The notes under the pieces are model-generated. The model ran no database searches and was not told the origin of the DNA. It worked only from the letters and a program-made list of their open reading frames with translations. Both the position numbers and the translations under genes were made by a program. A stretch of 37,717 bases of DNA from a virus, in IMG/VR virus record IMGVR_UViG_3300042305_001267, positions 1 to 37,717 of that record. One strand, 5' to 3'. Positions 1 to 33,485 of this stretch are shown in pieces (within the stretch, counting starts at the first letter, position 1; every line of letters starts with the position of its first letter).

Positions 1-127
1 ATCGAGAAGGACTGATACATAACCGCGAAGTTAAGGTCAGAGAGCAGCACTGGTATGAGTGTGGTCATGCGCTGCATATCGGTATCCATGACAGGCATGA
101 GAGCAGTCGCGGACTTCACCGAGTACA
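1..127. repeat. Left copy of 127-bp terminal overlap
   Basis: These 127 bases are identical to the last 127 bases of the window. The length is typical of a k-mer overlap left when a circular molecule is assembled. Dropping one copy closes the circle at 37,590 bp and joins the two halves of the portal gene in frame. It is therefore more likely an assembly overlap of a circular or circularly permuted genome than a biological terminal repeat. Confidence 0.97.
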
Positions 128-773
128 CGAACGGAATAGCTCCGTAAGGGTTACCGCCGTCCATGCGCATTTGATTCATCATGTCGGTCTGCACGTTACC
201 GTTTGAGTCCTGAATGATGAACTCATCGTCGGTGTAGACGTAGAGGATCGTTAATTCTCGGCCTGACTTATCCGCACGCTTCCCCATGACCTTGATGAAA
301 TGTGTGGGGCGGTTGGGCTCCACCATGTCGGTCGACACAACGAAGAACCTATCGGATGGGAGAGCGCGAAGGCGTGGCATCAAATTCCTGTTAAGGTACG
401 GCTCTACTGCGAAGTTCTTAAACAGGTTGAAGTAGTTATTGCAGATCCCCATGGCGATATTGGGCTGCATTTGTTTCTCGTACCAGCCGAACACTTCCTT
501 ATCGGTGTCGTTTCCTTCAATGACCAGGCGTTGCGGCGGCTTTAGATACAGGCCCGATTGTTTATCGACGATCTTCTTTAGGACGTTGATCGGTGCCGCG
601 CGGTGCTCAATCTGCTTGTAGACCTGCTGAGAGACTTGATTCTTAATTTGATACAGCACGTAAGGGAGGAGATTCCCCTCGAAGATATCGTACAGCTCGG
701 CGTTATGGGTGAGACGGTCGAGGTTAGACTTGTAGGCCGCCGCGATCATCTTCGTTTCTTGTGCAAGGCTCAT
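1..773 (-). CDS. Portal protein, N-terminal part (gene cut by the window edge)
   Basis: This is the N-terminal part (about 257 codons) of the portal protein, the dodecameric ring at the capsid vertex through which DNA is packaged. The ATG at 773 overlaps the large-terminase stop (ATGA), the usual terminase-portal coupling. The frame stays open to base 1 and continues across the circular joint into the part ending at 36909. The joined gene is 1,455 bp and 484 aa. The N-terminus begins MSLAQETKM. The overall pattern (helical N-terminus, mixed middle, acidic C-terminal tail) and the position after terminase fit an SPP1-gp6-like portal. The family call rests on position, size and general resemblance, not on a diagnostic motif. 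Confidence 0.88.
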   Translation of the reverse strand, partial: MSLAQETKMIAAAYKSNLDRLTHNAELYDIFEGNLLPYVLYQIKNQVSQQVYKQIEHRAAPINVLKKIVDKQSGLYLKPPQRLVIEGNDTDKEVFGWYEKQMQPNIAMGICNNYFNLFKNFAVEPYLNRNLMPRLRALPSDRFFVVSTDMVEPNRPTHFIKVMGKRADKSGRELTILYVYTDDEFIIQDSNGNVQTDMMNQMRMDGGNPYGAIPFVYSVKSATALMPVMDTDMQRMTTLIPVLLSDLNFAVMYQSFS

Positions 774-2014
774 AGCTCGATAGTCTCCTGTGGGCGACGG
801 TTCCCGACGATGTGCTGCCAGTAAATATAATACCCAAGCGCGTCTGCTTTGTGCCCTAAGTTATTTTTATCAGACGGAAAGCGCCCGTCGAGGGGCTGAG
901 ATGAGAGGTCACGAATTAACTCGCTGCATGACGGGTCGATCTCCACTCGGTGAGTTCCTACGGCTGACATGAGGTAGGAGTTAACTGCGGAGACGCGGTC
1001 AATGATTGCTGGGTTCTTAGCCATGACCTTGGTTTGGAAGCGGTAACCGTGGTGGGTGAGGAGCTCGGTGATGTAGTGGTAGTCCGAGAACCCTGTGGTC
1101 GAGTGGCGGTTAGACCCTGCCGCATCCCCGTGGACGAAGAGGTGGAGTTTCTCTTTCAAGTGGGCGTAGTCTTGGCAGAACTTCTTCACCGTCTCGATGG
1201 TCGAGGAGTTCTTTAAAGAATACTCCCGCTTAACTCTGTGTAGCTCTTGGTTCTGGATCAAGAGCAGCGAGGTGGGGTTCACGTTGAAGTCAAAGGTCAG
1301 TGCGAGAGGGAGCTCGGGGTTGATCTCGGGCTGTTTCTTGATGTGCACGTTCTCGTTAAAGGTGTAGTAGGCGAGCCCCTCGAAGGACTCCCATGTTGCC
1401 TCGTACTCTTGTCGGAATGACCGCTCATCGAGTTCTCTTTTGGCGTTCTCGATCTCTTCCTTATCGACCCCAGGGTTATCGTAGGTTGACCAGTAGTGAT
1501 ACGACCAGTCTTCCGGCTGTCGCATGATATCTAGATAGAAATCATATGCGTCCGTTCCCTTACCGTTTGGGGTGGTGGTGATTACTGCTCTGCCCTTGCG
1601 GTCTGAGAGGGCTGGTCGTACTGCACGCCAGATATCTTTAAGGGGCTTTGAAAAGAACGCGACCTCGTCAAGGCATACGAGCCCTGCCGCGTGACCACGG
1701 ATGCGAGATATCTTCTCTGCTCCGATGAGGAAGATCGCACGACGCCCAGGGAGTTCAATCCGCTGCTTTGATACGAGTGCCTTATACGATGCCCCGAGGT
1801 TGTATAGCCGCTCTTCAAGGGGCTCCCACATGAGTTCCATCGCTTGCATGTGAGACGGTGCGACCACGAACGCCTCTGTGCGTGGCTCGAACTTCGCTAC
1901 CTCTTCGAGAATGATCTCCCGAACTCCAACGGTCTTGCCTCCGCGCCGTCCCGCCAGTGCAAAGCGGTGACGTGTCTTGTCCTTACGGAATGCGTACTGC
2001 TTGGAGTGGTTCAA
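770..2014 (-). CDS. terL: Terminase large subunit
   Basis: This is the DNA-packaging motor ATPase and headful or cos nuclease, 414 aa. An ATPase domain comes first: a Walker A variant AGRRGGKT at residues 21-28, Walker B LVCLDE at 112-117, and a coupling motif ITTTPNG at about 145-151. The C-terminal RNase H-like nuclease has three acidic residues in the expected places: D242 in FDFNVNP, D297 in VHGDAAG, and D391 in HKADALGYY. Length is normal for the family. The ATG overlaps the small-terminase stop, and the stop overlaps the portal ATG, so the three genes are translationally coupled. No truncation or missing catalytic residue is visible. Confidence 0.97.
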   Translation of the reverse strand: MNHSKQYAFRKDKTRHRFALAGRRGGKTVGVREIILEEVAKFEPRTEAFVVAPSHMQAMELMWEPLEERLYNLGASYKALVSKQRIELPGRRAIFLIGAEKISRIRGHAAGLVCLDEVAFFSKPLKDIWRAVRPALSDRKGRAVITTTPNGKGTDAYDFYLDIMRQPEDWSYHYWSTYDNPGVDKEEIENAKRELDERSFRQEYEATWESFEGLAYYTFNENVHIKKQPEINPELPLALTFDFNVNPTSLLLIQNQELHRVKREYSLKNSSTIETVKKFCQDYAHLKEKLHLFVHGDAAGSNRHSTTGFSDYHYITELLTHHGYRFQTKVMAKNPAIIDRVSAVNSYLMSAVGTHRVEIDPSCSELIRDLSSQPLDGRFPSDKNNLGHKADALGYYIYWQHIVGNRRPQETIEL

Positions 2015-2517
2015 GCTGGAGGGTCCGACGGGTCGTCGTAGAGGTAAAGAGTTTTGTTCTCGTCGTCTGCGATATCAAACTTCTCTAGGAGAGCGACGAG
2101 GGCCTTAGCTTTGTCGTGCATCTTGAACTTGAGTGTGTGGCCGTTGTTCGTGACTGTCTCGGTGACCTCTGCGACGGCTGCGGTGACTTCTTTCGGCAGT
2201 TCTTCGGAGCTCGAATAGTGCACGCCTGAGTTATCCCACTTGATGACTTCCTCGACGTTGGCGAAAGCGATCTTGGAAAGTTCCTTCAGCACTCGCCCCT
2301 TAGTGATGTGTAGCCGCTTCAACTGCCGATCACGTTCTCGACGTATCGCGTCTTGAATATTAGCTTTTTTTAATAATTTATGCGCCGTGACAGCGGATGA
2401 GGAGTAGCTTTTAGATGGGTATCCCGCTGCTTCGTAAGCGCGTGTTGCGTTTTGGTCCTCGAGGTATTCAAGGACGAACTTTAGTTCTCTCTCGGAGAGT
2501 TCGCCGCGTTTGGGCAT
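2011..2517 (-). CDS. terS: Terminase small subunit (Terminase_2 / XtmA-like)
   Basis: This 168-aa protein is likely the DNA-recognition subunit of the packaging terminase. Its N-terminal third (about residues 5-50) has the pattern of Terminase_2 proteins: LSERELKFVLEYL, then a helix-turn-helix-like AATRAYEAAGY-type segment. A long basic helix and a region resembling the LxxIAFANVEEV segment of the family follow. The C-terminus ends with a helical oligomerisation-type stretch. It sits directly upstream of terL and overlaps it by 4 bp. The upstream 102 bp have no gene. Start choice: ATG at 2517, with only a weak Shine-Dalgarno. Confidence 0.93.
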   Translation of the reverse strand: MPKRGELSERELKFVLEYLEDQNATRAYEAAGYPSKSYSSSAVTAHKLLKKANIQDAIRRERDRQLKRLHITKGRVLKELSKIAFANVEEVIKWDNSGVHYSSSEELPKEVTAAVAEVTETVTNNGHTLKFKMHDKAKALVALLEKFDIADDENKTLYLYDDPSDPPA

Positions 2518-2577
2518 AGGTCTAGGATATCACTCTGAGTTAAAAGCAAAAGCAAGGCGTGCGCCCCGCGTTATCAT

Positions 2578-2596
2578 AAATCATGGTTCGTGATTT
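2578..2596. promoter_or_regulatory. Imperfect palindrome upstream of terS
   Basis: The 19-bp element has AAATCA and TGATTT arms with one further G/C pair inside. It lies in the 102-bp gap between terS and the preceding small gene. On the minus strand a TATGAT-like hexamer follows immediately, but no convincing -35 lies at 16-18 bp. It could be an operator or part of a late promoter. The evidence is only the symmetry. Confidence 0.25.
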
Positions 2597-2619
2597 GTGT
2601 TGCAACATTTTGGGGAAAT

Positions 2620-2820
2620 TCAATGAAGCGGCGCCCCGTCCTCGGGCATGGGCTCTACAACCTGGGAGTCCGTGGCGAGCATCCAGATCACGAAAGCGTG
2701 AACCGAGCAGCGAAGGTGAGAGGTCCCGTGCTGACCTGATTTGTAGAGGTCTTTAGCGATTTGATAAATCTGCTCCCACTCCTCGTCGGTGATGGTTTCC
2801 ATAGAGATTTCGCGGGTCAT
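2620..2820 (-). CDS. Hypothetical protein, 66 aa
   Basis: This is a small unrecognised protein beginning MTREISMETITDEEW. The reading frame is open further upstream to 2868, but the ATG at 2820 overlaps the stop of the preceding zinc-finger gene (ATGA), and that coupling makes it the likely start. The composition is helical with an acidic N-terminal half and a hydrophobic core (CSVHAFVIWML, residues about 38-48). It lies between a zinc-finger gene and terS at the head of the late operon. That position is compatible with a regulatory or packaging-accessory role, but nothing in the sequence names one. Confidence 0.7.
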   Translation of the reverse strand: MTREISMETITDEEWEQIYQIAKDLYKSGQHGTSHLRCSVHAFVIWMLATDSQVVEPMPEDGAPLH

Positions 2821-2963
2821 TTGGGGTCTAGGTACTTGTACATTTGTTTTCTTCGGCACTGATGACAAAGCCTCTGGAAGCGCGAGTCCGTCTTAAACTT
2901 CGTCTTGCACTCGGGCCCAAGGCAGACCCTTAGGATTAGTTTCGGTTTCGGCTTCCCTGCCAT
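2817..2963 (-). CDS. Small zinc-finger protein, 48 aa
   Basis: This short gene starts at the ATG at 2963 and encodes a basic N-terminus (MAGKPKPKLILRVC) followed by two cysteine pairs: C14 and C19 (CLGPEC), then C33 and C36 (CHQC). Between them lies a DSRFQRL-type segment seen in small phage zinc-finger proteins. The four cysteines probably bind zinc. It is the first gene of the leftward late operon and overlaps its neighbour by 4 bp. Its position next to terminase is common for such proteins, which may act as transcription or packaging cofactors; that role is inference. It diverges from the phosphoesterase gene at 3025. Confidence 0.8.
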   Translation of the reverse strand: MAGKPKPKLILRVCLGPECKTKFKTDSRFQRLCHQCRRKQMYKYLDPK

Positions 2964-3024
2964 GAATAGAATCTTAAGCGTGTTTTTAGTTGTGTGTCAC
3001 CCCGAGTGGGTCACCATTTAATTA

Positions 3025-3723
3025 ATGGCATATGATCTCGACCCGTCTCGTTGGCTCGTGATCTCGGATCTACAGATCCCATTTCATCATCAACACGCGC
3101 TAGAGTTCTGTAAGTACGTCGTGAAGCACTACCGAATCCCTTCGGAGAATATTCTGTGCATAGGCGATGAACTGGATAATTATTTCGGTGGGTTATGGCC
3201 TAAAGACCCGAACGCGAACCACTCGGCGATGGGAGAGATCCAAGCCTCTCTTGAGGAGTTGCGTAAGTGGTATCAGACTTTCCCTGAGATGCGTCTCGCT
3301 ATTTCAAACCACGGCACTCGGTGGATGAGGAAAGCAACACAGGCCGAGATCCCATCAATCATGCTCCGCCGTTACGAGGACGTGCTTGAAGCCCCTGCGG
3401 GATGGCGATGGCAGAAGACCTGGAAGGTTCCCTGTAAGTACCCGTTCATGATCGAGCACGGGGATGCTCATGGGGGTCAGACACCACACAAACAAGCGGC
3501 AATGCTTAACGGGATCTCGACTGCAATCGGACACTTCCACTCGATAGCAGGAGTGGAGTACATGAAAACCAATGGCATGAATGTTTGGGGATTATGTACA
3601 GGGTCACTAATTGATTTCGAGCAGTACGCATTCCACTACGCTCGGGATGCGAAACTAAAACCCCAGATCGGGGTTGGCGTGGTCGTTGACGATGGTCGGT
3701 GGGCACAATGGATTCCGCTCTAG
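3025..3723 (+). CDS. Calcineurin-like metallophosphoesterase
   Basis: This 232-aa metal-dependent phosphoesterase has the ordered motifs of the calcineurin-like fold: SDLQIPFHH (D15, with Q17 replacing the usual His), GDELDN (D48, D51), SNHGTRW (N95, H96), EHGDAHGG (H145) and GHFHS (H170, H172). The dinuclear metal site is therefore essentially intact. The D-x-Q first motif is a known variation in phage homologues. Its substrate (nucleotide, nucleic acid or phosphoprotein) cannot be read from the sequence. It is transcribed rightward alone, divergent from the late operon, with no clear Shine-Dalgarno upstream of the ATG. Confidence 0.88.
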   Translation: MAYDLDPSRWLVISDLQIPFHHQHALEFCKYVVKHYRIPSENILCIGDELDNYFGGLWPKDPNANHSAMGEIQASLEELRKWYQTFPEMRLAISNHGTRWMRKATQAEIPSIMLRRYEDVLEAPAGWRWQKTWKVPCKYPFMIEHGDAHGGQTPHKQAAMLNGISTAIGHFHSIAGVEYMKTNGMNVWGLCTGSLIDFEQYAFHYARDAKLKPQIGVGVVVDDGRWAQWIPL

Positions 3724-3947
3724 ATTTTAATCAATTCGCCGGACGGATGGTCAGTGTGAACTATTTCGAGTCTGACCGCTGGGTGGATGGCCGATTAGTT
3801 CGTCAAGTGTCACTTGGCGAGGATCTTTCGTTTCTAGTTCTTGAACTTCAAAACGGTTCTGAGTTTTTAGTTGATCTTCAACACTTGATAGCCGTTGAAT
3901 TAAAACCTTCAGCTCTGCGTCCAACTCTGCAAAGCGTTTCATCATAA
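3708..3947 (+). CDS. Small beta-rich hypothetical protein, 79 aa
   Basis: This reading frame starts inside the last codons of the phosphoesterase gene (ATG at 3708; GTG at 3699 also possible). It alternates hydrophobic and polar residues in a way typical of a small beta-barrel: VSVNYFES, WVDGRLVRQV, SFLVLELQNGSEFLV, HLIAVEL. No family is recognised. It overlaps, on the opposite strand, the end of a gene encoding a membrane-anchored coiled coil (3751-4092). Both look protein-like, so one may be a shadow or the two may be genuinely overlapping convergent genes. Confidence 0.5.
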   Translation: MDSALDFNQFAGRMVSVNYFESDRWVDGRLVRQVSLGEDLSFLVLELQNGSEFLVDLQHLIAVELKPSALRPTLQSVSS

Positions 3948-5960: not shown

Positions 5961-6209
5961 CTAAAGGGTTCTTTTCCTCCTGGCTAGATGCCTCTCGTAT
6001 AATCCCGGAGAAACCTTATCGATCCACGCCCGATATTTAGGGTAACGGTCAGCGAGCCAGACGATCCCCATCTGATGCCTAAGCGTGTGACAAGCCCTGC
6101 AAATAGGCACGAGGTTCTCGGGGTCGTCAGATCCTCCAGAGCCACGAGTTTTCAAGTGGTCGTACTCGGTAGCGGGTCCGTGGCAGATGATGCACTTAAC
6201 ACCGATCAT
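5961..6209 (-). CDS. HNH endonuclease-like protein, 82 aa
   Basis: A compact HNH/beta-beta-alpha-metal domain. It has zinc knuckles C6-C9 (CIIC) and C37-C40 (CRAC), the H-containing YDH at 16-18, a GGSDDPENLVPIC segment with N32, and H41 and H45 at the end. All features needed for a metal-dependent nuclease are present. In this early-operon setting, next to replication genes, it may process replication or recombination intermediates; small free-standing HNH proteins can also assist packaging. It overlaps the upstream gene by 4 bp (ATGA). Confidence 0.85.
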   Translation of the reverse strand: MIGVKCIICHGPATEYDHLKTRGSGGSDDPENLVPICRACHTLRHQMGIVWLADRYPKYRAWIDKVSPGLYERHLARRKRTL

Positions 6210-6685
6210 AGCTCCGATGATTTCGCCTGAGAAGAATCCATTTCGATCACGCGATTGATCCGAGTTACTAATTCACCTCCCAAATATTTTACCTCGCCGT
6301 GTTTCTGAACTCCCAAGAGCAACGCCTGACTCTCGGGTTTTAACTCTGGTGGAATCCGGTTAAGCGCCCAGCGGAGGGTTGAAAGTCTAGTTTGATTCTC
6401 TCCCGCGGCGGTAGCGTAAACCACAAGCCACCGAAGGAGTTTAAAAATCAAAACAGAATCCGCGTGGATGGGATTGGCCGCCAATCTTCCGTCGACGTAC
6501 TCCGCGAGCGTTGGGTGAAACGTCGGAACGTAAACCGGAAAGTGCATGTGAGATTTCGCCGCAACCATGATCGCGCTTTGGGTGAAGTACTCGTCTGCGG
6601 TGATTAGCTTTCTCACGTACATCGAATAGAGCTCATGCTCGGGTGAATCGTAAGAATCTGCGAGAGGTGGTAAATCAAAATCCAT
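6206..6685 (-). CDS. Hypothetical early protein, 159 aa, carrying the repeated 21-residue segment
   Basis: No family is recognised. Residues 9-29 (from ADSYDSPEH to YVRKLIT) are encoded by a 63-bp sequence that occurs again, inverted, at the end of the annealase gene (10926-10988). Here the segment runs naturally into the following residues (ADEYFTQSAIMVAAKS), so this copy looks ancestral. The rest is helical (LIFKLLRWLVVYATAA, RLSTLRWALNRIP). It lies directly downstream of the replication initiator, overlapping it by 11 bp, where a helicase loader is often found, but I see no Walker motif. The name should remain hypothetical. Confidence 0.75.
   Translation of the reverse strand: MDFDLPPLADSYDSPEHELYSMYVRKLITADEYFTQSAIMVAAKSHMHFPVYVPTFHPTLAEYVDGRLAANPIHADSVLIFKLLRWLVVYATAAGENQTRLSTLRWALNRIPPELKPESQALLLGVQKHGEVKYLGGELVTRINRVIEMDSSQAKSSEL
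6599..6661. repeat. 63-bp inverted repeat, copy A
   Basis: The reverse complement of these 63 bases equals 10926-10988 base for base, and identity stops sharply at both ends. It codes for residues 9-29 of the 159-aa early protein on the minus strand. The 4.26 kb between the copies contains the replication initiator, the control region, the glycosyltransferase and the annealase. Confidence 0.95.
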
Positions 6686-7424
6686 CGCCGAAAATCTCCT
6701 TGTCGAGTTGCTCGCTCCTTCGTCGCTGCTCTTCGGCTTTCACATCTGCCTCGAGTTTAGCTGCCAGCACCTTCGGTTTAAAATCCACCCAGTCGCGCCA
6801 CTCGGTTGCCCAAGTCGAGAAGTGCTTCAGGTATTGGGGCTCAGTCCGATTCAAACTACAGTGCTCTGCGTAATTCTCTACGGCTTTCTCGACGAGAGGT
6901 AAATCGGATTCTTTCACCTTTCGTAGCTTCTCCAGTCCCCGGCTCTTGCCTTCCTTCCGAGGAAACTTTTCATACACTCGCTCAAGGCGCGCAGCGAATT
7001 GAGCATATGTATTTCTGTTCTTATTTCTATCTTCTATCTTCTTACTTCTATCTTCTCCCGGGCAAGATCCGGGATCTTGCTTCTGTCTTGCTTGTCTCTT
7101 GCCCCCCCATGAACTCTGTAATTCTAAATACTTAGGACAAAATATCGACCAGGTTTCGCTCGAATCTTGATCCATTCTTGCTTGAATCTTGGGCGAAAGT
7201 CGGGCCAAAATGCGCTCCACTTTGGGCCAAGATCCGGCCAACTTTCGGCAGAGTTCCTTCTTCGTGGTGACCCAAACACCGTTAGCGCCGCGCTGCGAAA
7301 TGTACTCGATGATGAGCCAGTAGTACCCAAAGAGCTCGACTTGTTTTTCTGAGATTAGACGGCTGAGAAACTCGTCGTCATGAGCGTTGCCGAAATGTTT
7401 AAACCAGGGGCGCTTATCTGCCAT
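6675..7424 (-). CDS. Putative replication initiator / replisome organiser
   Basis: This 249-aa protein starts after AAAGGTGAAAC, a good Shine-Dalgarno. Its N-terminus (PWFKHFGNAHDDEFLSRLIS, then ELFGYYWLIIEYISQRG) and a winged-helix-like segment (VTTKKELCRKLAGSWPKVERIL) resemble the N-terminal domain of phage replication proteins of the lambda O / replisome-organiser kind. A low-complexity basic linker (about residues 110-140) separates it from a helical C-terminal part with aromatic repeats (FSTWATEWRDWVDF), as in DnaD-like or helicase-loading domains. The linker DNA holds iteron-like repeats and a polypurine tract, as expected of an origin embedded in an initiator gene. Confidence 0.68.
   Translation of the reverse strand: MADKRPWFKHFGNAHDDEFLSRLISEKQVELFGYYWLIIEYISQRGANGVWVTTKKELCRKLAGSWPKVERILARLSPKIQARMDQDSSETWSIFCPKYLELQSSWGGKRQARQKQDPGSCPGEDRSKKIEDRNKNRNTYAQFAARLERVYEKFPRKEGKSRGLEKLRKVKESDLPLVEKAVENYAEHCSLNRTEPQYLKHFSTWATEWRDWVDFKPKVLAAKLEADVKAEEQRRRSEQLDKEIFGDGF
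7025..7059. repeat. Tandem 7-bp repeats (five units)
   Basis: Five consecutive heptamers follow TTCTATC: three are exact and two are variants (TTCTTAC, TTCTCCC). They lie in the linker of the initiator gene and encode alternating charged residues. They could be a DNA-unwinding element or simply low-complexity coding. Confidence 0.8.
7062..7080. promoter_or_regulatory. Perfect 9-bp-arm palindrome in the initiator gene
   Basis: GCAAGATCC and GGATCTTGC face each other across a single G. The half-site CAAGATCC is echoed nearby (around 7208-7215) and the CAAGA core recurs several times, which supports an initiator binding site rather than chance. Confidence 0.6.
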
Positions 7425-7446
7425 GTTTCACCTTTGATGTTTCGGG

Positions 7447-7476
7447 TTGACACTATGACAGATGCCGTCGGATAAC
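7447..7476 (+). promoter_or_regulatory. Sigma70-type promoter, rightward
   Basis: A perfect -35 (TTGACA, 7447-7452) is followed after 18 bp by GATAAC (7471-7476), matching four of six -10 positions. Transcription would begin near 7483 and meet two hairpin terminators within 75 bases, before reaching the glycosyltransferase gene at 7605. Confidence 0.6.
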
Positions 7477-7491
7477 GGTTCCGTCCTAGCC

Positions 7492-7514
7492 AACTCATTC
7501 GCACTGAGTTTTTT
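7492..7514 (+). terminator. Short intrinsic terminator 1
   Basis: A 6-bp stem (AACTCA/TGAGTT) closes a 7-base loop and runs straight into six T residues (7509-7514). The stem is A/T-rich and thus weak by itself. It stands 7 bp before a stronger terminator. Confidence 0.5.
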
Positions 7515-7516
7515 CT

Positions 7517-7557
7517 AGCCCCGCAAGGAAGACCAAGTCAACCGAGCGGGGCTTTTT
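7517..7557 (+). terminator. Strong intrinsic terminator 2
   Basis: An 8-bp G/C-rich stem (AGCCCCGC / GCGGGGCT) spans a 21-base loop and is followed by TTTTT and CTT. The T-run is only on the plus strand, so it acts on rightward transcripts, upstream of the glycosyltransferase gene and downstream of the promoter at 7447. Confidence 0.75.
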
Positions 7558-7604
7558 CTTAGCCGGAACTCGACAAGTATTAAAGCGGCATTTACCCTCG
7601 CTAG

Positions 7605-9077
7605 ATGCACCCACCTAACAACGAAGAGAAGAACCTCTACCTCGACTGGCAGCGTAATAAACTCTATGCTTTCGGGACGTTAAGCCTTATCGCCCTTGTC
7701 ACGGGGATGGCCCTTTTCCTCCGGGCGCATGAGATGTTTCTCTTGTTCCTGCCCATCATGGGACTCACGGCGCTGTATCTCGCGGTGAGTTACCTCGTCG
7801 TCTGGACGGCCCTGCCTTTCAGTAAGGCGCTTCACGAGTTCACAAAGCAAGCACAGGGAGCGCGAAAGCCCGTTGATATTCTCTACCCGACCTGTGGGGA
7901 ATCCTTAGAAACAATCGCTGACGCTCTCGTATCAATCCGCCTGGCCGCCGATGCCTGGCATCCCGATTCGACTGTGTGGGTTTTGGATGACTCCGGGAGA
8001 GTGGAGGTCGCGTCTCTCGCTGATCAGTTCCAAATGAACTACCGCTCTCGTCCCAATAAGGGCGAAGGGAAGAAAGCGGGAAACTTACTTTCCGTTTGGC
8101 CGGAATTGACCCATGACTTCTTCTGCATCTTCGACGCTGACTTTCGTCCCTCGATCGAGTTCTTCCCGGAGTTAATGCCCCACTTCTCGACGAAGAAAGT
8201 CGCCATCGTTCAGTCGCCCCAGTTCTTCCGAGTCGAAGGGAATTGGATCTCGAAAGGTGCGGCCCAAGTTCAGGAGCTCTTCTACCGAATCATCCAAGTC
8301 GCCAGAGACTACTGGGGTGCTCCGATCTGTGTCGGGACCAACGCGATCTATCGGCGAGAGGCGTTCCCGAATGGGACTTACCAAATTTCATACTCCGAAG
8401 ACGTTCACACTGGATGGGACGCGAAGGCTCGGGGGTATTGGATTCAGTACGTGCCCTTGAATCTCGCGGTGGGGGAATGCCCTACCAAGGTTAAAAACTT
8501 CTTTGTGCAGCAGTACCGTTGGGCGATGGGGTCGTTATCACTTGCCGGTAATATCGAATTCTGGCGCTCCCCGATCGGAGTCATGAGAAAACTCTGCTAC
8601 TCGTGTGGATTCGGTTACTACATTTCCACAGGGCTCTCGGTGGTCGTGGCGTTCCTCCCATCCCTCTTCGTGCTCGTCTATCGACCGGATATGTTTAAGT
8701 ACTGGAACTATTTCTTCGTGCTTCCCTCGCTGCTCTTCTCGATCATCGGGATGGCGAAGTGGAGTAAAGCGAAGTTCGGCGTGTATTCCCTGGTAGTAAA
8801 ACGCATCTCGAGTGGCGCTCATTTCTCGGCTCTCGTTGATCGCATGACTGGGAAGATGATCCCCTGGCAGCCAACCGGGGGAGCGGTGTCCTCCTCATGG
8901 AAGTTCTATGCTTGGCTAGGGTTTCAGTGGTTCTGGCCGTGCCTCATGACTGGGGTCCTCTTGACGGTGGGACTCGCAACCGTGCCGATGATTCACTTGA
9001 TCCCTACGGTGCTTACTGCGGGGCTTGAACTGTATCTCGCGGGTTGTGTGCTCGCTCTCTATGCGAAGCACGGCTGA
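7605..9077 (+). CDS. Cellulose-synthase-like membrane glycosyltransferase (GT2)
   Basis: This 490-aa inner-membrane enzyme has the full signature of a processive GT2 synthase. Two N-terminal membrane segments (about 21-40 and 43-70) precede a cytoplasmic catalytic domain with VLDDS (D128, D129), KAGN (157-160), DAD (177-179), an ICVGTNAIYRR acceptor-side motif (241-251), SED (264-266, in the place of TED) and QQYRW (QxxRW, 302-306). Three or four further membrane segments follow (about 330-360, 366-384, 437-485). Such enzymes polymerise a sugar nucleotide and export the chain (cellulose, hyaluronan and similar glycans). No PilZ domain is present. It is the first gene of the rightward operon. 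The sugar donor cannot be told from sequence. Confidence 0.93.
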   Translation: MHPPNNEEKNLYLDWQRNKLYAFGTLSLIALVTGMALFLRAHEMFLLFLPIMGLTALYLAVSYLVVWTALPFSKALHEFTKQAQGARKPVDILYPTCGESLETIADALVSIRLAADAWHPDSTVWVLDDSGRVEVASLADQFQMNYRSRPNKGEGKKAGNLLSVWPELTHDFFCIFDADFRPSIEFFPELMPHFSTKKVAIVQSPQFFRVEGNWISKGAAQVQELFYRIIQVARDYWGAPICVGTNAIYRREAFPNGTYQISYSEDVHTGWDAKARGYWIQYVPLNLAVGECPTKVKNFFVQQYRWAMGSLSLAGNIEFWRSPIGVMRKLCYSCGFGYYISTGLSVVVAFLPSLFVLVYRPDMFKYWNYFFVLPSLLFSIIGMAKWSKAKFGVYSLVVKRISSGAHFSALVDRMTGKMIPWQPTGGAVSSSWKFYAWLGFQWFWPCLMTGVLLTVGLATVPMIHLIPTVLTAGLELYLAGCVLALYAKHG

Positions 9078-9300
9078 GCTAGAGTGGATGCAGAAAGAAG
9101 TCTTGGCGTTAATCCGAGACTTCGATCTCGCCGTAGCTCATTACCGAATAGAAGCCGAGATGATCGTGAACGAGCCGGAGTTAACAGCGCTCTTTGATCA
9201 CCTAGACGCCCTAACTCAGGACTACCCGATTGTGCGGCAGTGGTTCTTGCGTAAGAAAATGCTCATCGACGAGAGGTTAAGACTTGCTAGACTTAAGTAG
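9061..9300 (+). CDS. Hypothetical protein, 79 aa
   Basis: This is a helical protein whose ATG at 9061 lies 17 bp inside the end of the glycosyltransferase gene (an upstream in-frame start at 9025 is less likely). It begins MRSTAELEWMQKEV and continues with acidic amphipathic helices (ALIRDFDLAVAHYRIEAEMI, PIVRQWFLRKKMLIDERL). No signal, membrane segment or family recognised. Tight overlap with the synthase suggests coordinated expression. Confidence 0.7.
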   Translation: MRSTAELEWMQKEVLALIRDFDLAVAHYRIEAEMIVNEPELTALFDHLDALTQDYPIVRQWFLRKKMLIDERLRLARLK

Positions 9301-9542
9301 TGGGTCGCTTGATTGTCGTATTTACGGCTTTATTAGCTTTTAAATCAGGCGAGTGTAATCAGTTCTGCCGGGTTCAGGGGTTAGAATCTGGTCGGTACGC
9401 GGACAAGTACTGCGTCTGTGTAAAGAGTTTTAAATATTCTGAACTATCCAAACCCCGTTACGGTCTCCCTCCTGTTATAGATCACGAGGAAGAATCGAAG
9501 CCTATATTCAGGCTCGACGACACTTGGGACTTTACAGACTAG
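9300..9542 (+). CDS. Small exported cysteine-rich protein, 80 aa
   Basis: The GTG start overlaps the preceding stop (TAGTG). The N-terminus (MGRLIVVFTALLAF) is a short hydrophobic signal-like segment. It is followed by four close cysteines in CNQFCRVQG and YCVCVK (about residues 19-41), which could form two disulfides after export. The rest is polar with an acidic end (LDDTWDFTD). A periplasmic or envelope-associated role is likely but unspecified; being encoded beside a glycan synthase hints at host-surface modification. Confidence 0.7.
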   Translation: MGRLIVVFTALLAFKSGECNQFCRVQGLESGRYADKYCVCVKSFKYSELSKPRYGLPPVIDHEEESKPIFRLDDTWDFTD

Positions 9543-9566
9543 CTCCCCTTCGATAGCTAGTAAGTC

Positions 9567-10064
9567 ATGAAGTCACTACCCGATTTGATCATCGAGGCTC
9601 GTCAAATTTCTAAAGAAATACAGAACTACTCTGAGGATGTTTATCCATACGAGTTAGAGATTTTAAAAGATATCAACGAGGTCCAGAAGAAAGAAAAAAT
9701 CGATGGCTACTCCGCGCTCATGGAGCAGTTCAAGCGTGAGGCTGAAATGTGGGAGGAGCAGGAGAAACTTTGCAAAAGCCAAAAGCAAAAAGTCCAGAAT
9801 CTTCTCGATAGGTTTAAGGACCGCCTCAAAGAGTGCATGAAGTTAGCGGGCACGAATGAGCTAGAGGGTTATTTGGCGCGCTTCGTTAATGTGAATATGA
9901 AGCCCAAGCTCGTGGTCGATGAAACGAAACTTCCGAAGAAGTACCTCATGCCCGTTACCACCTACCAGGTGGACAAAGACGCGCTGCGTTTCGATCTCGA
10001 ACAAGGGGAGATCATCGAGGGCGCGCACCTCGAGCCCGTAACAGCTCTAAGGAAGTACCCCTGA
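9567..10064 (+). CDS. Siphovirus Gp157-like protein
   Basis: This 165-aa protein matches the Gp157 family layout: a long coiled-coil N-terminal half (residues about 10-95, rich in E/K/Q with LMEQFKREAEMWEEQEKL), then LERF/LARFVNVNMKPKLVVDE and PKKYLMPVTTYQVDKDALR, the conserved C-terminal strand region. Members are found next to recombination genes of siphoviruses. An early report linked Gp157 in Streptococcus thermophilus phage to resistance, but the biochemical role is unclear. Here it precedes the Rad52-type annealase and SSB, so recombination or replication support is the reasonable inference. Confidence 0.87.
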   Translation: MKSLPDLIIEARQISKEIQNYSEDVYPYELEILKDINEVQKKEKIDGYSALMEQFKREAEMWEEQEKLCKSQKQKVQNLLDRFKDRLKECMKLAGTNELEGYLARFVNVNMKPKLVVDETKLPKKYLMPVTTYQVDKDALRFDLEQGEIIEGAHLEPVTALRKYP

Positions 10065-10118
10065 CCCAATAGCGGGCATTTTAGACGGCTTAGAAAAGGT
10101 TTTAAGAGAGGAATCAAC

Positions 10119-10991
10119 ATGGATCTAAAAGCAATCGAGGCGAAGCTAAAAGCCCCGTTCCCAGAGTCAGACGTGCAGTGGCGCATCTTTAGGTGCGGGG
10201 TGTCTAACGGGAAGCCTTGGGCTAAGGTGCTCGCGTACATTGACGCCCGAGCAATTCAAGACCGACTCGACGAGGTGTTTGGAATCCAGAACTGGTCAAT
10301 CGAGTACCAACACACGGGCGGTGGGGTGATGTGCGGGATCACGGTCAACATCCACGGCATCCCTAACATCGAGTGTTGGGTCATCAAGTGGGACGGAGCC
10401 GACGCTACGGATATCGAACCTTTCAAGGGCGGGATTTCTTCAGCCATGAAGAGAGCCGCTAGTGCTTGGGGAATCGGGCGTTACTTGTACAACCTAGAAG
10501 AAGCGTTCGCTGAAGTTAGTAAGGAGAGAGTCGATGGAGCCCACCACCACAAAGATGGAAAAGGAAACGAGTTCTACTGGAAACCCCCCAAGCTCCCTCG
10601 ATGGGCGCTTCCAGGAAATGAACCAAGTACTAACGTGGCTAAAGAACCGGATCGACGAGCAGGGACGACAGCTGAACTACCAAGCGCAGAAACTCCACGA
10701 GCAGCAGGGACACATCCGAGCTCTGATGAACCTAACGGAAATCCTGATCTCATCCCAGCCGGTCAATACAAAGGTCGGAACCCTTGGGAGATTAATGAAA
10801 ATGAACTTACAAATTATCTCAACCGTATTCTCGAGACTGCCGACCTATCTAACTTACGCCCGGAACAAAAAGCGACAATAACAATCATCGGCGCACGTTT
10901 AGGTCGCACGATTAAATTCAACAAGGCAGATTCTTACGATTCACCCGAGCATGAGCTCTATTCGATGTACGTGAGAAAGCTAATCACCTAG
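10119..10991 (+). CDS. Rad52/Rad22-type single-strand annealing protein
   Basis: A 290-aa annealase. The N-terminal ~170 residues carry the Rad52_Rad22 pattern: LKAPFPESDVQWRI, AYIDARAIQDRLDEVFG, a DGADATDIEPFKGGISSAMKRAASAWGIGRYLY-type core (key residues G-G-x-S-x-A-x-K-R-A-A and W-G-I-G-R-Y-L-Y), and FYWKPPKLPRWALP. It anneals ssDNA for recombination and works with the SSB encoded next. A P/T/A-rich linker follows, then a folded-looking tail (GQYKGRNPWEINENELTNYL). The last 21 residues before the stop come from the 63-bp inverted repeat and look like a late addition. A second gene is nested in another frame at 10534-10881. Start preceded by GAGAGGA. Confidence 0.92.
   Translation: MDLKAIEAKLKAPFPESDVQWRIFRCGVSNGKPWAKVLAYIDARAIQDRLDEVFGIQNWSIEYQHTGGGVMCGITVNIHGIPNIECWVIKWDGADATDIEPFKGGISSAMKRAASAWGIGRYLYNLEEAFAEVSKERVDGAHHHKDGKGNEFYWKPPKLPRWALPGNEPSTNVAKEPDRRAGTTAELPSAETPRAAGTHPSSDEPNGNPDLIPAGQYKGRNPWEINENELTNYLNRILETADLSNLRPEQKATITIIGARLGRTIKFNKADSYDSPEHELYSMYVRKLIT
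10534..10881 (+). CDS. Nested out-of-frame coiled-coil protein, 115 aa
   Basis: Within the annealase gene, in the +1 frame, an ATG stands exactly 7 bases after a perfect AAGGAG (10521-10526). The product begins MEPTTTKMEKETSS and continues as a clear amphipathic coil (residues about 25-70, including EMNQVLTWLKNRIDEQGRQL and YQAQKLHEQQGHIRALM). The annealase frame over the same bases is a low-complexity P/T/A linker, which leaves room for overprinting. The C-terminal part (from about residue 75) looks less protein-like because there the annealase frame is the constrained one. No known family. Confidence 0.5.
   Translation: MEPTTTKMEKETSSTGNPPSSLDGRFQEMNQVLTWLKNRIDEQGRQLNYQAQKLHEQQGHIRALMNLTEILISSQPVNTKVGTLGRLMKMNLQIISTVFSRLPTYLTYARNKKRQ
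10926..10988. repeat. 63-bp inverted repeat, copy B
   Basis: The exact reverse complement of 6599-6661. It ends immediately before the stop codon of the annealase gene and adds residues 270-290 in the same reading frame used by copy A, so both proteins share an identical 21-residue peptide. Confidence 0.95.
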
Positions 10992-10999: not shown

Positions 11000-11356
11000 A
11001 TGTCCGCACAAATCCAATTCACTGGGAATATCGGCAAGGAACCTGAATATAAAACCTTCGCATCTGGAAAGTCTAAACTCTCGTTTTCAGTGGGAGTAAA
11101 CGACGGTTCAAAAGCAAAGCCTCACACGACGTGGTTCAACGTCGATATCTGGGACCCCGCACACTCACACCTAAAGAAGGGAATGCGCGTCCTCGTAATG
11201 GGACGGATCAAGCAAGAGGAGTGGAAGGCTAAAGACGGCACCACGAAACAGATCATGAAGGTCACCGCCGAGACTGTGGAAGAAGTTATCAAACAAGAAC
11301 GCAAGGACGCTCCAGTTCTTCAAAACGGCCCCGAAGAGCAGGACATAATGTTTTGA
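11000..11356 (+). CDS. ssb: Single-stranded DNA-binding protein
   Basis: This 118-aa SSB has an OB-fold layout: IQFTGNIGKEPEYKTFASG, LSFSVGVND, TTWFNVDIWD, LKKGMRVLVMGRIKQEEW, and a last strand (IMKVTAETVEEV). It ends in an acidic tip, EEQDIMF, equivalent to the DDIPF tip through which bacterial SSBs recruit partners. It is shorter than bacterial SSB and lacks a long linker. The start follows GGAGAGAGC. Adjacent annealase and Gp157 form the recombination module. Confidence 0.93.
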   Translation: MSAQIQFTGNIGKEPEYKTFASGKSKLSFSVGVNDGSKAKPHTTWFNVDIWDPAHSHLKKGMRVLVMGRIKQEEWKAKDGTTKQIMKVTAETVEEVIKQERKDAPVLQNGPEEQDIMF

Positions 11357-11698: not shown

Positions 11699-12375
11699 AC
11701 TTAGTTGCTATTACGGAACTTATTCAAAACGAGATCTCTAAAGAGACCGATGACTCCAAGAAGCTCGAAGCTATAAATGAAATCAAATCTTTTTTGCACG
11801 AGCTTAGCCCACTAAAGAGCGAGCCAGTAAACAACGTCCAATGGATTCCTGGACACCTGCTCGACGCGAACGATTACAACCCAAACTCTGTCGCCCCCGT
11901 TGAAATGAAGCTGCTCGAGCACTCAATCAGAGAAGACGGATACACTCAGCCTATTGTCGCCTGGCGTAAAGATGATGGCCGTTTCGAGGTTGTGGACGGC
12001 TTCCATCGAAACAGAGTTGGGAAAGAGTCAAAGGTAGTTTCCAGCCGAGTAAAAGGCTTTTTGCCGATCGTAGTGATCAACTCTGCACGCGCAGACAAGT
12101 CGGATCGAATTGCCTCAACGATTCGCCACAATCGTGCGCGGGGTAAGCACGCGGTCAACTCGATGAGTGACATTGTCGTTGACCTAAAAAAACGCAATTG
12201 GAGCGATGAAAAAATAGGGCGAGAGCTTGGCATGGACCCGGATGAGGTCCTGCGTCTGGCTCAAATCAGCGGGCTTGCAGAGATGTTTGCAAATCGCGAA
12301 TTCTCAAAAGCCTGGGTCGCAAATTCAATTAATGAGTCCGACACACTCCAAGATTTTACGGAGGTTGCAGAATGA
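11695..12375 (+). CDS. ParB/sulfiredoxin-fold protein, IbrB/YbdM-like
   Basis: A 226-aa protein with a helical N-terminal extension (1-45), then a ParB-N fold: VQWIPGHLLDANDYNPNSV, an MKLLEHSIREDGYTQPIVAW segment, EVVDGFHRNRVGK with the DGxHRxR signature (101-107), and ASTIRHNRARGKHAV (140-153). A helix-turn-helix-like segment follows (WSDEKIGRELGMDPDEVLRL, 169-188). This arrangement matches IbrB/YbdM-type proteins that pair with PAPS-reductase-like IbrA/YbdN. GTG start after GGAGGAAGAG, overlapping the previous stop. It is first of a three-gene overlapping cassette. Whether it binds DNA, hydrolyses nucleotide or cleaves nucleic acid is not decided by sequence. Confidence 0.85.
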   Translation: MNLVAITELIQNEISKETDDSKKLEAINEIKSFLHELSPLKSEPVNNVQWIPGHLLDANDYNPNSVAPVEMKLLEHSIREDGYTQPIVAWRKDDGRFEVVDGFHRNRVGKESKVVSSRVKGFLPIVVINSARADKSDRIASTIRHNRARGKHAVNSMSDIVVDLKKRNWSDEKIGRELGMDPDEVLRLAQISGLAEMFANREFSKAWVANSINESDTLQDFTEVAE

Positions 12376-15484: not shown

Positions 15485-15754
15485 TTAACTACCCTGTTCG
15501 CAGGATTTAAGCCGTTCCTTGAGGTTGATGATGTCGGAGTTCATTCTCTCCCACTCAGCGGTAAGGACGACGCGGCACTTATCGAGGTTCTGCGCATCGG
15601 GCTGGCAGGTGGAAACGGGAATATCTTCGGAAGGCTTACGACCTTTGAGAGTCCCATCCCAAACAGGAAGGTCCATGATGTAAGACGTGTACGCCACAGA
15701 CGCACACGAGGTCAGGAGAGCACAGAACGCGAAACCGAGGATGAATTGCTTCAT
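15485..15754 (-). CDS. Small lipoprotein, o-spanin candidate
   Basis: This 89-aa protein has a lipoprotein signal (MKQFILGFAFCALLTSC) with lipobox LTSC and the lipidated cysteine at residue 17. The mature part has two cysteines (CQPDAQNLDKC) and a terminal helix (EWERMNSDIINLKERLKSCE). It would be anchored in the outer membrane. In a lysis cluster such a protein usually completes outer-membrane disruption with an inner-membrane partner. The ATG overlaps the upstream stop. Confidence 0.7.
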   Translation of the reverse strand: MKQFILGFAFCALLTSCASVAYTSYIMDLPVWDGTLKGRKPSEDIPVSTCQPDAQNLDKCRVVLTAEWERMNSDIINLKERLKSCEQGS

Positions 15755-17281: not shown

Positions 17282-17779
17282 TTAGGTGTAGACGTACTCT
17301 AGATTAAAATCAAAGCCGACGCCCACGGTTTGAACTGCGGTGATATCCAAGCGAACCAAATCCCCGGCGAGGAGTGAGGTCACCCCGATTACTGCGTTGG
17401 TACTAAGCGCATAGTCGCCTGAAGTGTACGCCACAGACGGACGCGTGGAGAAGATTGTAGTCCAAGCCCCAGCCCCGCGCTTGTACTTGATATCAATTTC
17501 TACGGACCCCGCCGTGCCTGCGGTCTGAGCGATGAGACGCGCACCCTGGACGGTGATGTTGTTCGAGATACGGGTAAACATCACTTCATTCTGTGGACCC
17601 TTTAAAGAGTATGGACCCGCCGCGTTAAACTCGATGACTAGGATGGCGTTGATTGAGTTTTCAGCCGAGACGATTCGAGACTCGTGGTCGTCGAAATTGT
17701 CCTTCATCTTCTGAAAGAGTTCTTTCGCGGTAGGTTCCCCGACCTGAATCTGCGCCGTAGTAATCGCCGTAAAAGCCAT
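17282..17779 (-). CDS. Tail appendage-like virion protein, 165 aa
   Basis: The N-terminal helix (AKELFQKMKDNFDDHESRIVSAENS) suggests trimerisation and attachment. It is followed by a beta-rich C-terminal domain (YSLKGPQNEVMFTRISNNITVQGARL, SVEIDIKYKRGAGAWTTIFSTRP, DLVRLDITAVQTVGVGFDFNLEYVYT). That helix-then-sandwich layout is typical of short tail-spike or fibre subunits. Good Shine-Dalgarno (TAGGG). It lies between the hub-like 851-aa protein and the fibre-like protein. Confidence 0.65.
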   Translation of the reverse strand: MAFTAITTAQIQVGEPTAKELFQKMKDNFDDHESRIVSAENSINAILVIEFNAAGPYSLKGPQNEVMFTRISNNITVQGARLIAQTAGTAGSVEIDIKYKRGAGAWTTIFSTRPSVAYTSGDYALSTNAVIGVTSLLAGDLVRLDITAVQTVGVGFDFNLEYVYT

Positions 17780-24440: not shown

Positions 24441-26512
24441 GCGAACGACCTCCCGGAGTTAACGCCATCTCGCAGGACGTTGAAGACTTCCTTCTCGCCG
24501 ATGTTCACGGTGATCTGATTCTCGAGCCCATCGAGACGGTTCACGATCATCATGAGAATCTCATTTGACCCACCGCCACCGTTCGACATGAACTGCTTAA
24601 GGTCCTTATTCTGCTCCACGGATAGGACACGTTCACCGGAAGAAAGGTTCGCAGGGAAAGTATCATTCCTAAACCCTGGCGGGACTTCGGTAATCCCAGT
24701 AGCGAGGTTAGTCGCTGCGATGTTTGAGATGTTCACAGCGGAAGCAGCAGCAGCGGCTGCGGCGAAGATGGCGCCTAAGATAGGACCACCGATACCAGCC
24801 CCCACTTTGTACGCGCCCTGTGCTGCGGCGTATCCGTCAATTGCAGCCTGAGCAATAGCAGCAGCCTTACCGATAGCGAACAGCTCTGCCGACTGAGTCT
24901 TCTGAAGTGCGGAGAGGTTCCCAAAGAATTGGGAGAAACCCTTGAGACGAGCCTGAGAGAGCTGCTCTTCCTGTGCGTTACGTTTCTTTAGGAGCTCGAG
25001 CTGCTGCCTTGAGCCCTCTTGCTCTTGGGCAATGATCGCGTCAACCTTCGCTTGGTTATCCGCAATCTTCTGAGCGTTAGCGAATGCGTCCGTCTCAGCG
25101 AGGAGGGCGTTCTCTGCGAGGAGCGCCTCTGCTTCCTTTTGTCTAAAAGTCTGCTGAGCTACGGCCAACGCATCGAGGAACGTCTGCTCTGTGATGAGAT
25201 CCTGAGCCCTAGCTTCTGCGAGAGCGACCGATTGCTGCGCTAGTTTCTCGGCTGGGTTCTCTCCCAAGAGAGACTTCGCAAGGTCGGTGCCCTGCTGACC
25301 TAGCTTCTTCTGTTCTTCGGAAAGTTCAACGAGAGCTGGGACGAGTCTGTTTTTAATTTGATCCGCAGCTGTCGCAGAATCTTTTCCGATCCCCTGGTCA
25401 ATCGCTCCACCGATATCGGCTACCGCGTCTCGGAACTTCCCTAGAGTCGTCTCTTTAGTGAACGCCTCGTCGATGCTCTTCGACGTGTCCATGATGCTGC
25501 TGTCCATTGCACCGAGGACGTTGTCGATCGTGTCTGAGACTCCACGAAGTGGTTCGAGTGCGATGAGAATCCCACGGATCGCAACCTGTATCCCTAGGCG
25601 GATAATGTTAAACGCTTGCTCAGTGGCTCGAGCGAGCTGATCGAGTACGCCTATAGTGATCCCTACGGACTTAACGAAAAGGCTTAGGCCCTCTCCCAGG
25701 GCTGTGGCGATCTGAGGCCCGTTGTCTTTGATCTGTCCAGTGAGTGAAACGATTACGGCTTGAACGGCGTTGATACCGTTCACAAAAGCCTGGTTTCCTA
25801 CAATGGTTTTCCCGAGCTCTTCCTGAAGATTCCCGAAAGAGTTTGATAACCTAGTCTGCGCTCCTGCGAACGTCTGAGACTTTGCTTCCGCCGCACCCTG
25901 GAATCTCTCAAGAGCTTTTAAAGTGTTCGCGTAAGTCTCGGCGTCGGTGTTGCCCTTCTTAATCTCAATTCCTAGCTTACCGAACGCGGCTACGTTACCG
26001 TTTGCGGCTTTTGCGACGAGAGTGGCTGCTTGCTCTAGATCAATCCCAAGAGCTGCGGCGAGGTCGGCTGCTGAACTTGTTGCGGTCTTTAATCCCTCAC
26101 CAGAGAGACGGGTCAGCGTCCCGATGAGAGCGCCAGACTTGATGATCGCCTCATCTTCAAAAGAAGTGATTTGAGATAAGCCGTCTGCAAAATCACTAAA
26201 GCTTTTGGTCGACTCTTTTACGTTCTTATCGGTGTCGGAGATCGCAAACGCGAAAGCGGCCTGTGCTTCTTCCGCTTCCTTAGCTGCGTCAATACCAGCG
26301 GCGAATTGTCCGACTACCGCACCGAGGGCCTGGCCTAGGAGTTTAATCCCCTCGACAGCGATGGCCGCGCCGAACGCTCCCTTGAACACATCCAAGGAAC
26401 CGATCTTCTTAAAGGCTCCCTCTAAACCTTTGACCTCCGCCTGGACCTGCTTCAGAGGTCCGGTAGGGTCTTTTCCGTAATTGATTCTAAGGTTTAGATT
26501 TATGTCGGCCAT
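24437..26512 (-). CDS. Tail tape measure protein
   Basis: 691 aa. The early part (GLEGAFKKIGSLDVFKGAFG) leads into hydrophobic segments (about 40-75 and 290-320) and a long coiled region (LAQQSVALAEARAQDLITEQ, DNQAKVDAIIAQEQEGSRQQ). A second hydrophobic block rich in A/G follows (GIGGPILGAIFAAAAAAASA), then an NLSSGERVLSVEQNKDLKQF end, as in many tape measures. At about 1.5 angstrom per residue it would specify a tail near 100 nm. It directly follows the frameshifted chaperone genes. Confidence 0.93.
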   Translation of the reverse strand: MADINLNLRINYGKDPTGPLKQVQAEVKGLEGAFKKIGSLDVFKGAFGAAIAVEGIKLLGQALGAVVGQFAAGIDAAKEAEEAQAAFAFAISDTDKNVKESTKSFSDFADGLSQITSFEDEAIIKSGALIGTLTRLSGEGLKTATSSAADLAAALGIDLEQAATLVAKAANGNVAAFGKLGIEIKKGNTDAETYANTLKALERFQGAAEAKSQTFAGAQTRLSNSFGNLQEELGKTIVGNQAFVNGINAVQAVIVSLTGQIKDNGPQIATALGEGLSLFVKSVGITIGVLDQLARATEQAFNIIRLGIQVAIRGILIALEPLRGVSDTIDNVLGAMDSSIMDTSKSIDEAFTKETTLGKFRDAVADIGGAIDQGIGKDSATAADQIKNRLVPALVELSEEQKKLGQQGTDLAKSLLGENPAEKLAQQSVALAEARAQDLITEQTFLDALAVAQQTFRQKEAEALLAENALLAETDAFANAQKIADNQAKVDAIIAQEQEGSRQQLELLKKRNAQEEQLSQARLKGFSQFFGNLSALQKTQSAELFAIGKAAAIAQAAIDGYAAAQGAYKVGAGIGGPILGAIFAAAAAAASAVNISNIAATNLATGITEVPPGFRNDTFPANLSSGERVLSVEQNKDLKQFMSNGGGGSNEILMMIVNRLDGLENQITVNIGEKEVFNVLRDGVNSGRSFA

Positions 26513-27058
26513 TCCGTTGGCTTCGCCTTACCTTGTCATTCTCTAGCCGTTTGATCTCGCTCTCGATTAGTATAAACGCCTCACTGCTCAAGTCATCCAG
26601 ACTCTCACCCTGAAACGTGAACCCTAAATCTTTAAGGCTCTTATGAGCCATGTACGCCTCGAGGTATGGATAGGTTTCATTCATCCCATCCGTCCCGAGA
26701 TACGCCCACTTAACCTGCTGCTTTAGGGCGTCCCTTGAGACTTTCCCAGCGTCTCCCCCTTAAGGAATTCCGCCGAGAGATTACTGATTAGCACCGACCC
26801 CTCGTTGTAGAATCCAAGCTCTGAGAGATCCTTAAACACCTGACCCGTGGCCTTGTGTGTAATCTCACAACCCGTCACGTTCTCCAGCATCACCTCGACT
26901 TGACGCGCCATAGCCTCGAAGCTATCGGAGCTATTAGCGTCGGACATGATCACCCGAATCTTCGCCAAGAGCCGAAGCCTCTCGGGATACGAGAGGAGTT
27001 TGGTTTCTACGAATCCAGAAAAGTGCTCGTCTTCAATTGTGTATTTTTTGGTCTTCAT
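26487..27058 (-). CDS. Tail assembly chaperone, frameshift product (GT-like)
   Basis: The second chaperone frame has no need of its own start. It is open from 26759, overlaps the end of the first chaperone, and joins it at the slippery heptamer GGGAAAG (26741-26747). A -1 shift after the AAG codon gives a 190-aa product whose extension reads VSRDALKQQVKWAYLG and continues through MNETYPYLEAYMAH to the stop at 26487. The tape-measure gene starts 26 bp before its end. In lambda the corresponding gpGT is needed to recruit tape measure and tail tube; the same is expected here. Confidence 0.82.
26723..27058 (-). CDS. Tail assembly chaperone (G-like)
   Basis: The unshifted product, 111 aa from the ATG at 27058 (a TTG two codons earlier is also in frame). 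It is a helical, acidic protein (KYTIEDEHFSGFVETKLLSYPERL, SDSFEAMARQVEVMLEN). It lies directly between tail tube and tape measure, as tail chaperones do. Its last codons are CTG GGA AAG, containing the slippery sequence. In lambda the G:GT ratio is set by low-efficiency slippage. Confidence 0.85.
   Translation of the reverse strand: MKTKKYTIEDEHFSGFVETKLLSYPERLRLLAKIRVIMSDANSSDSFEAMARQVEVMLENVTGCEITHKATGQVFKDLSELGFYNEGSVLISNLSAEFLKGETLGKSQGTP
26741..26747 (-). promoter_or_regulatory. Programmed -1 ribosomal frameshift site GGGAAAG
   Basis: The heptamer is read in the zero frame as (CT)G GGA AAG, the X XXY YYZ form, and is the same heptamer lambda uses between G and T. The -1 frame is open for the 6 codons upstream of it and the 84 codons downstream. 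No obvious stimulatory stem is seen nearby. Confidence 0.85.
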
Positions 27059-27069
27059 GACCAAAGACG

Positions 27070-28599: not shown

Positions 28600-28611
28600 G
28601 TGCGTTATCTC

Positions 28612-30649: not shown

Positions 30650-30651
30650 AA

Positions 30652-31521: not shown

Positions 31522-31690
31522 TGTCGGCCTCGTGTAGTTGTTTGAATTCTTCTAGAATCAAAATCAATTGATTTAGTGTTTCAATGTCATGAATTACAGC
31601 GCGCTCAAAGTTTGGCAATGAAACAGTGACCGGAAATTGAATGTCTTCTCGTGTAATATTTGAAATTGATACGTCGTTAAGCTTTACCAT
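31511..31690 (-). CDS. Small hypothetical protein, 59 aa
   Basis: ATG at 31690 overlaps the previous stop (TAATG), and the TAA at 31511-31513 overlaps the next start. The product begins MVKLNDVSISNITREDIQF and ends in an amphipathic helix (DIETLNQLILILEEFKQL). It lies between the two paralogous structural genes. Possibly a small virion or chaperone protein. Confidence 0.7.
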   Translation of the reverse strand: MVKLNDVSISNITREDIQFPVTVSLPNFERAVIHDIETLNQLILILEEFKQLHEADNGI

Positions 31691-32645: not shown

Positions 32646-32646
32646 C

Positions 32647-33057: not shown

Positions 33058-33065
33058 ATTCCACC

Positions 33066-33401: not shown

Positions 33402-33410
33402 TCAAACCTC

Positions 33411-33454: not shown

Positions 33455-33485
33455 GATCTACGCCTGAAAGAGAGAGGAAACAGGC

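Follow-up and report, generated by a model that had tools for sequence, protein, structure and literature searches.

How do two unrelated proteins of one phage come to share an identical 21-residue peptide, encoded by the same DNA on opposite strands? The question is raised by IMG/VR virus record IMGVR_UViG_3300042305_001267, a circularised tailed-phage genome of 37,717 nucleotides that was analyzed here over its full length (hereafter the window). A perfect 63-nt inverted repeat (6599-6661 / 10926-10988; 100% complementary, with 4264 nt between the copies) places the peptide both inside a 159-aa protein and at the very C-terminus of a predicted annealase. We propose that the repeat very probably arose from a recent copy-and-paste accident, in which the annealase gene received at its 3' end an inverted duplicate of 63 bp from the gene of the 159-aa protein. 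The features at issue, named according to this proposal, are as follows.

6206..6685, minus strand: donor gene, encoding a 159-aa protein of unknown family, with an 11-bp overlap with the preceding replication-initiation-like gene
6599..6661, minus strand: donor copy of the 63-bp segment, encoding residues 9-29 (ADSYDSPEHELYSMYVRKLIT)
10119..10991, plus strand: recipient gene, encoding a 290-aa Erf/Rad52-like single-strand annealing protein with a C-terminal tail, as assigned by profile matches
10926..10988, plus strand: inserted 63-bp copy, encoding the last 21 residues of the annealase, between an AAG codon (Lys269) and the TAG stop

The exact repeat with abrupt ends reported in the first-pass annotation was recovered in full, with 63 of 63 positions identical and 0 bp shared between the donor and recipient flanks on either side of the segment. 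A scan of the window found no second inverted repeat of at least 24 nt, none at 20 nt and, at 18 nt, no further exact one. Dispersed inverted matches reached at most 16 nt in 40 order-4 Markov simulations of the window and at most 19 nt in eleven comparison stretches (other phage or bacterial DNA, ~290 kb in total). The length of the 63-bp repeat is far beyond chance. The same-frame translation of the two copies was also borne out: the peptide occupies residues 9-29 of the 159-aa open reading frame (ORF) and residues 270-290, i.e., the final 21, of the annealase, and only one of the six frames of the segment is open, namely the frame translated in both genes. A hairpin, terminator or DNA-site role for the segment was dropped because no DNA or RNA structure was found in it (z -0.4 and +0.5), and antisense pairing was discarded since the two mRNAs have identical sense sequence.

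The direction of copying was read from a relative. Viral contigs were searched with both proteins, their alignments, the single-stranded DNA-binding protein (SSB), the terminase and the initiator tail as queries, and the sole relative covering the locus was IMG/VR contig 3300035666_000068 (IMGVR_UViG_3300035666_000068; stretches L001, L002, L009 and L011). Among the other viral contigs, L007 and L008 are near-identical fragments ending before the locus and L010 shares only a distant SSB; an exact search of the viral contigs for the 63 bp returned no record beyond the window's own. Gene order around the locus is the same in the relative, without the second repeat. The two DNAs align ungapped at 94% identity up to position 10925, followed by a 63-bp gap and then by identical TAGGAGAGAGCATG, so that the relative reads AACAAG-TAGGAGAGAGCATG and the window reads AACAAG-[63 bp]-TAGGAGAGAGCATG. 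In the relative, the peptide occurs once, in the homologue of the 159-aa protein. The single copy together with the empty annealase site therefore indicates that the 159-aa gene is the donor and that the annealase gained its copy by insertion in the window lineage. The first-pass annotation had suggested comparing annealase C-termini among related phages, and had taken repeat-free proteins ending near residue 269 as evidence against its reading. The annealase-locus tail of the relative ends exactly there (...TIKFNK-TAG, at the residue equivalent to 269) without the 63-bp block, which makes the repeat not unreal but a recent lineage-specific insertion.

The homologue in the relative (76% identical; L001 2855-3334, minus strand) carries the peptide at the same position, as ADAYDSPEHELYSMYVRKIIS. 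The donor segments of the two phages have 85% DNA identity across the best 47 bp and differ at 16 positions, for the most part third positions of codons, with 13 of the 21 codons changed, 10 synonymously and 3 conservatively. Because the changes between the phages are mostly synonymous, the donor peptide is constrained as protein and not as a DNA recombination site. It is also one of the most conserved segments of the 159-aa protein, with no changes at residues 1-8 and 3/21 at residues 9-29 versus 26/89 at residues 71-159. Between the two copies within the window, no differences were observed over 63 bp, and divergence since copying is at most 4.6% (95% upper bound). Given 0/63 differences between the copies against 16 relative to the other phage, the copying is recent and postdates the separation of the donor genes of the two phages.

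At the junctions themselves, 0 bp of microhomology was observed on both sides, with no target-site duplication and no bases lost; the donor is retained, and the insert matches this same-genome donor on the opposite strand at 63/63 positions. Sequence comparison thus shows that a 63-bp stretch was placed ~4.3 kb away, inverted, between the last sense codon of the annealase and its stop. The recipient lost nothing, the 159-aa gene kept its own copy, and the annealase gained a 21-residue tail that repeats a conserved peptide from near the N-terminus of the 159-aa protein. Phage replication or recombination may have produced the event, through a template switch in two steps or through end-joining of a short opposite-strand fragment. 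Homologous annealing by the phage's annealase was probably not the guide, as the junctions are without microhomology. The donor segment starts with GCAGA, and GCAGA again follows the segment in the donor; this pair could reflect slippage or circle formation, or may be a coincidence. The insertion was probably tolerated since it leaves both the annealase end and the SSB start intact: the SSB ribosome-binding region TAGGAGAGAGCATG is undamaged, and its flank is identical to that of the relative. By default, the 21-residue tail is regarded as selectively neutral or nearly so.

Several observations weigh against the recent copying. The polarity depends on one outgroup, and this outgroup is itself suspicious given the apparent strain mixing in its assembly. 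Over 26469-37717 and 1-3893 (~15 kb, structural genes), its contig matches the window at 100%, against roughly 70-99% elsewhere, and the content of window positions 2998-3893 is found twice in it, at 88% identity at its start and at 100% at its end. This pattern suggests either a recent recombinant or an assembly chimera joining two co-occurring strains that share a recombined structural half. Such a join does not produce the difference at the annealase locus, which lies in a diverged stretch. Furthermore, the codon-boundary placement in the sole open frame is somewhat tidier than a random event would be expected to give (roughly 1 in 27, from phases alone and after the fact). The neat insertion point is partly a matter of survivorship, because few sites spare both the annealase and the SSB start. 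Both junctions are known from the assembled contig alone. The tagged state could also be ancestral, with the relative having lost the tag precisely and the window copies having been kept identical by gene conversion. A single outgroup and the possibility of gene conversion between the repeats leave room for this history, but it would take a footprint-free 63-bp deletion without flanking microhomology in the relative as well as full homogenisation in the window, and we regard it as highly improbable.

How far, then, do the other explanations account for the locus? An artefact, in which a library chimera or a strain-mixing error placed the 63 bp in the annealase, is suggested by the metagenomic origin of the contig, by the joining of strains of the phage in assemblies as seen in the relative's contig, and by two stretches of at least 127 bp shared between the window and the relative (9654-9791 and 11767-12143) that flank the annealase locus. 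An assembly at k=127, however, needs the insert and both flanks to be spanned by reads or lower-k contigs, and a pure assembly artefact is unlikely for this reason. Bases 1-127 of the window are identical to 37591-37717, a direct repeat that is separate from the 63-bp repeat and is the overlap expected when a k=127 assembler closes a circle; with assemblers of the metaSPAdes type, the terminal overlap of a circular contig equals maxK (PMC10914622). The 127-bp overlap matches this value, and a 513-codon open frame with the portal gene reads intact through the circle closure. Strain switching cannot make two new junctions, two independent chimeric events in one molecule would be needed, and the insert is exactly in frame. 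An artefact of any of these kinds is thus judged very unlikely. The first-pass annotation had offered copying and inversion side by side, and the copying is upheld, with its direction from the 159-aa gene to the annealase set by the relative; no positive evidence was obtained for the inversion. Recombination between the copies would flip 6599-10988 and exchange the downstream halves of two divergent operons, yielding a 420-aa fusion of the annealase with residues 30-159 of the 159-aa protein, plus a 29-residue stub. The geometry fits, with the copies in frame and an annealase, a Gam-like protein and an SSB encoded by the phage. Nevertheless, gene order is unchanged in the relative, which has no second repeat, the segment varies synonymously between phages and is not a conserved DNA site, and the scan of ORFs with PHROGs or Pfam, which did not extend to every small ORF, gave no site-specific recombinase. 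Inversion would also leave the stub and strip the conserved first 8 residues from the remaining 159-aa protein. An invertible segment is extremely improbable on these grounds; rare, low-frequency inversion via 63 bp of homology is possible.

A functional C-terminal tag is a different kind of alternative, since it adds a function to the copying event and does not contradict it: the copied peptide would be a docking motif through which the 159-aa protein contacts a partner, and on the annealase it would recruit that protein to the replication fork and be retained by selection. The peptide comes from the best-conserved part of the donor (3/21 conservative changes, versus 26/89 in the C-terminal half), both of its ends fall on codon boundaries, the sole open frame is the one translated, and its position is exactly C-terminal. 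Annealase C-termini are moreover known as protein-interaction modules, as in Redbeta, whose C-terminal domain is required for recombination and for Red-alpha binding (PMC5052646). Against this, the tag is not in the sole relative, the donor is without a family match, and the neat position may be survivorship, as insertions elsewhere would damage the annealase or the SSB. With one genome and zero divergence since copying, there is no sign of selection on the tag. We consider a selected tag a coherent but unlikely possibility, and less likely still the specific scenario of a natural “epitope tagging” caught very early, in which the docking peptide of a replication protein moved to the annealase C-terminus and recruited a new partner.

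Around the insertion, the recipient locus comprises the following features.

10630..10925, plus strand: annealase tail common to the relative, with 94.3% DNA identity over 296 bp; the N-terminal core of the relative differs
11000..11356, plus strand: SSB gene directly downstream of the insertion (phrog_44, E=1e-20)
9567..10064, plus strand: Mu Gam-like end-protection protein, upstream of the annealase (phrog_253, E=1.1e-21)

The annealase core matches PF04098 (E=1.8e-15, residues 3-139) and the Erf-like phrog_1097 (E=1.8e-67, residues 7-178), and it is clearly a member of the Erf/Rad52 family by these profiles, i.e., a predicted annealase. For its ~100-aa tail, phage and plasmid records gave no homologue, and in the bacterial genomes searched with the annealase only a Meiothermus Erf core matched. 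The core of the locus is swapped between the two phages: window positions 10065-10629 are Erf/Rad52-like, and the core at L001 6923-7544 matches only PHROGs of unknown function, and each core continues in frame into the shared ~100-residue tail. An out-of-frame ORF (MNQVLTWLKNRIDEQGRQLNYQAQKLHEQQGHIRALMNLTEILISS...) at 10618-10881 on the plus strand overlaps the annealase linker and has a counterpart in the relative at L001 7518-7796. Over 10630-10760, five of six changes are at third positions in the frame of this ORF (four synonymous codons and one not), and the annealase frame has no synonymous and five nonsynonymous codons; the pattern is reversed in 10761-10925. The changes are few, and they suggest that the out-of-frame ORF may be a real overlapping gene.

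The 159-aa protein has no match in Pfam or PHROG, none by tblastn in phage and plasmid records, and nothing in bacterial genomes. Its predicted structure (mean pLDDT 50) is too poor to judge the peptide as an independent motif, and fold matches of the model (best E 0.2) were not usable. Likewise, no homologue of the tag peptide turned up outside the donor family. The gene that it overlaps is the following.

6675..7424, minus strand: replication-initiation/primosome-like protein (phrog_9474, E=3.6e-4; phrog_9327, E=3.6e-3; both weak)

The search of the ORFs gave no phage helicase. This, together with the overlap with the initiation-like gene, is the basis for the idea, drawn from gene position, that the 159-aa protein could be a candidate helicase loader or another part of the primosome. 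Between the initiation-like protein and its counterpart at L001 3324-4100, the C-terminal 114 residues are 96% identical and the N-terminal part is different, i.e., a domain swap. More broadly, the leftward early operon consists of the replication-initiation-like gene (6675-7424), the 159-aa gene (6206-6685) and an HNH gene, and the rightward operon of genes for a glycosyltransferase, the Gam-like protein, the annealase, the SSB, a ParB-like protein and a PAPS reductase. Elsewhere in the window, a 28-nt direct repeat (86%; 15684-15711 / 17421-17448) lies in two ORFs 1.7 kb apart, in the same phase, with an SVAYTS motif in both.

The closest known systems include templated or template-switch insertions, such as those of microhomology-mediated break-induced replication (MMBIR) and fold-back inverted insertions at breaks, in which a short inverted copy is likewise made, the donor is kept and homology is confined to the segment. 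Templated inverted insertions are described in yeast and cancer (PMC11724301, PMC8421209), and the yeast cases are mostly about 5-34 bp; here the insert is 63 bp with a donor 4.3 kb away. The present insert also differs in belonging to a phage genome, in being in frame directly before a stop codon and in having 0-bp junction microhomology, and its mechanism is inferred. MMBIR as such is not claimed, owing to the lack of microhomology at both junctions. In template switching between inverted repeats (PMC8604942), inverted copying also changes a coding sequence and requires no prior selection; those events homogenise pre-existing imperfect inverted repeats, whereas the empty site of the relative shows no pre-existing repeat here. 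The Gin/Hin/Cin phage inversion systems also have two inverted repeats within coding sequence; in contrast, no invertase was found here among the scanned ORFs, and the 63-bp repeat is protein-constrained, and is uninverted and single-copy in the relative. Neither the terminal inverted repeats nor the target-site duplication of a transposable element was found, and the segment is internal to a conserved gene. The recipient core belongs to the Erf/Rad52 family, as do P22 Erf and lambda Redbeta, and proteins of this kind bind partners through their C-terminal regions (PMC5052646); matches to P22-type relatives are confined to the first ~170 residues of the annealase, whose ~100-aa tail lies beyond. 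The literature on short inverted copying in phages yielded no close counterpart.

The locus provides a fresh example of a short peptide moved between unrelated phage proteins by inverted copying, and the example is polarised because the donor, the recipient and the empty site of the relative can all be read. If the new tail is neutral, it cautions against taking shared peptides as evidence of shared function. If the peptide is truly a docking motif, the annealase would have gained a new interaction in one step, and the copy would mark a functional peptide in an early protein that is otherwise unclassified.

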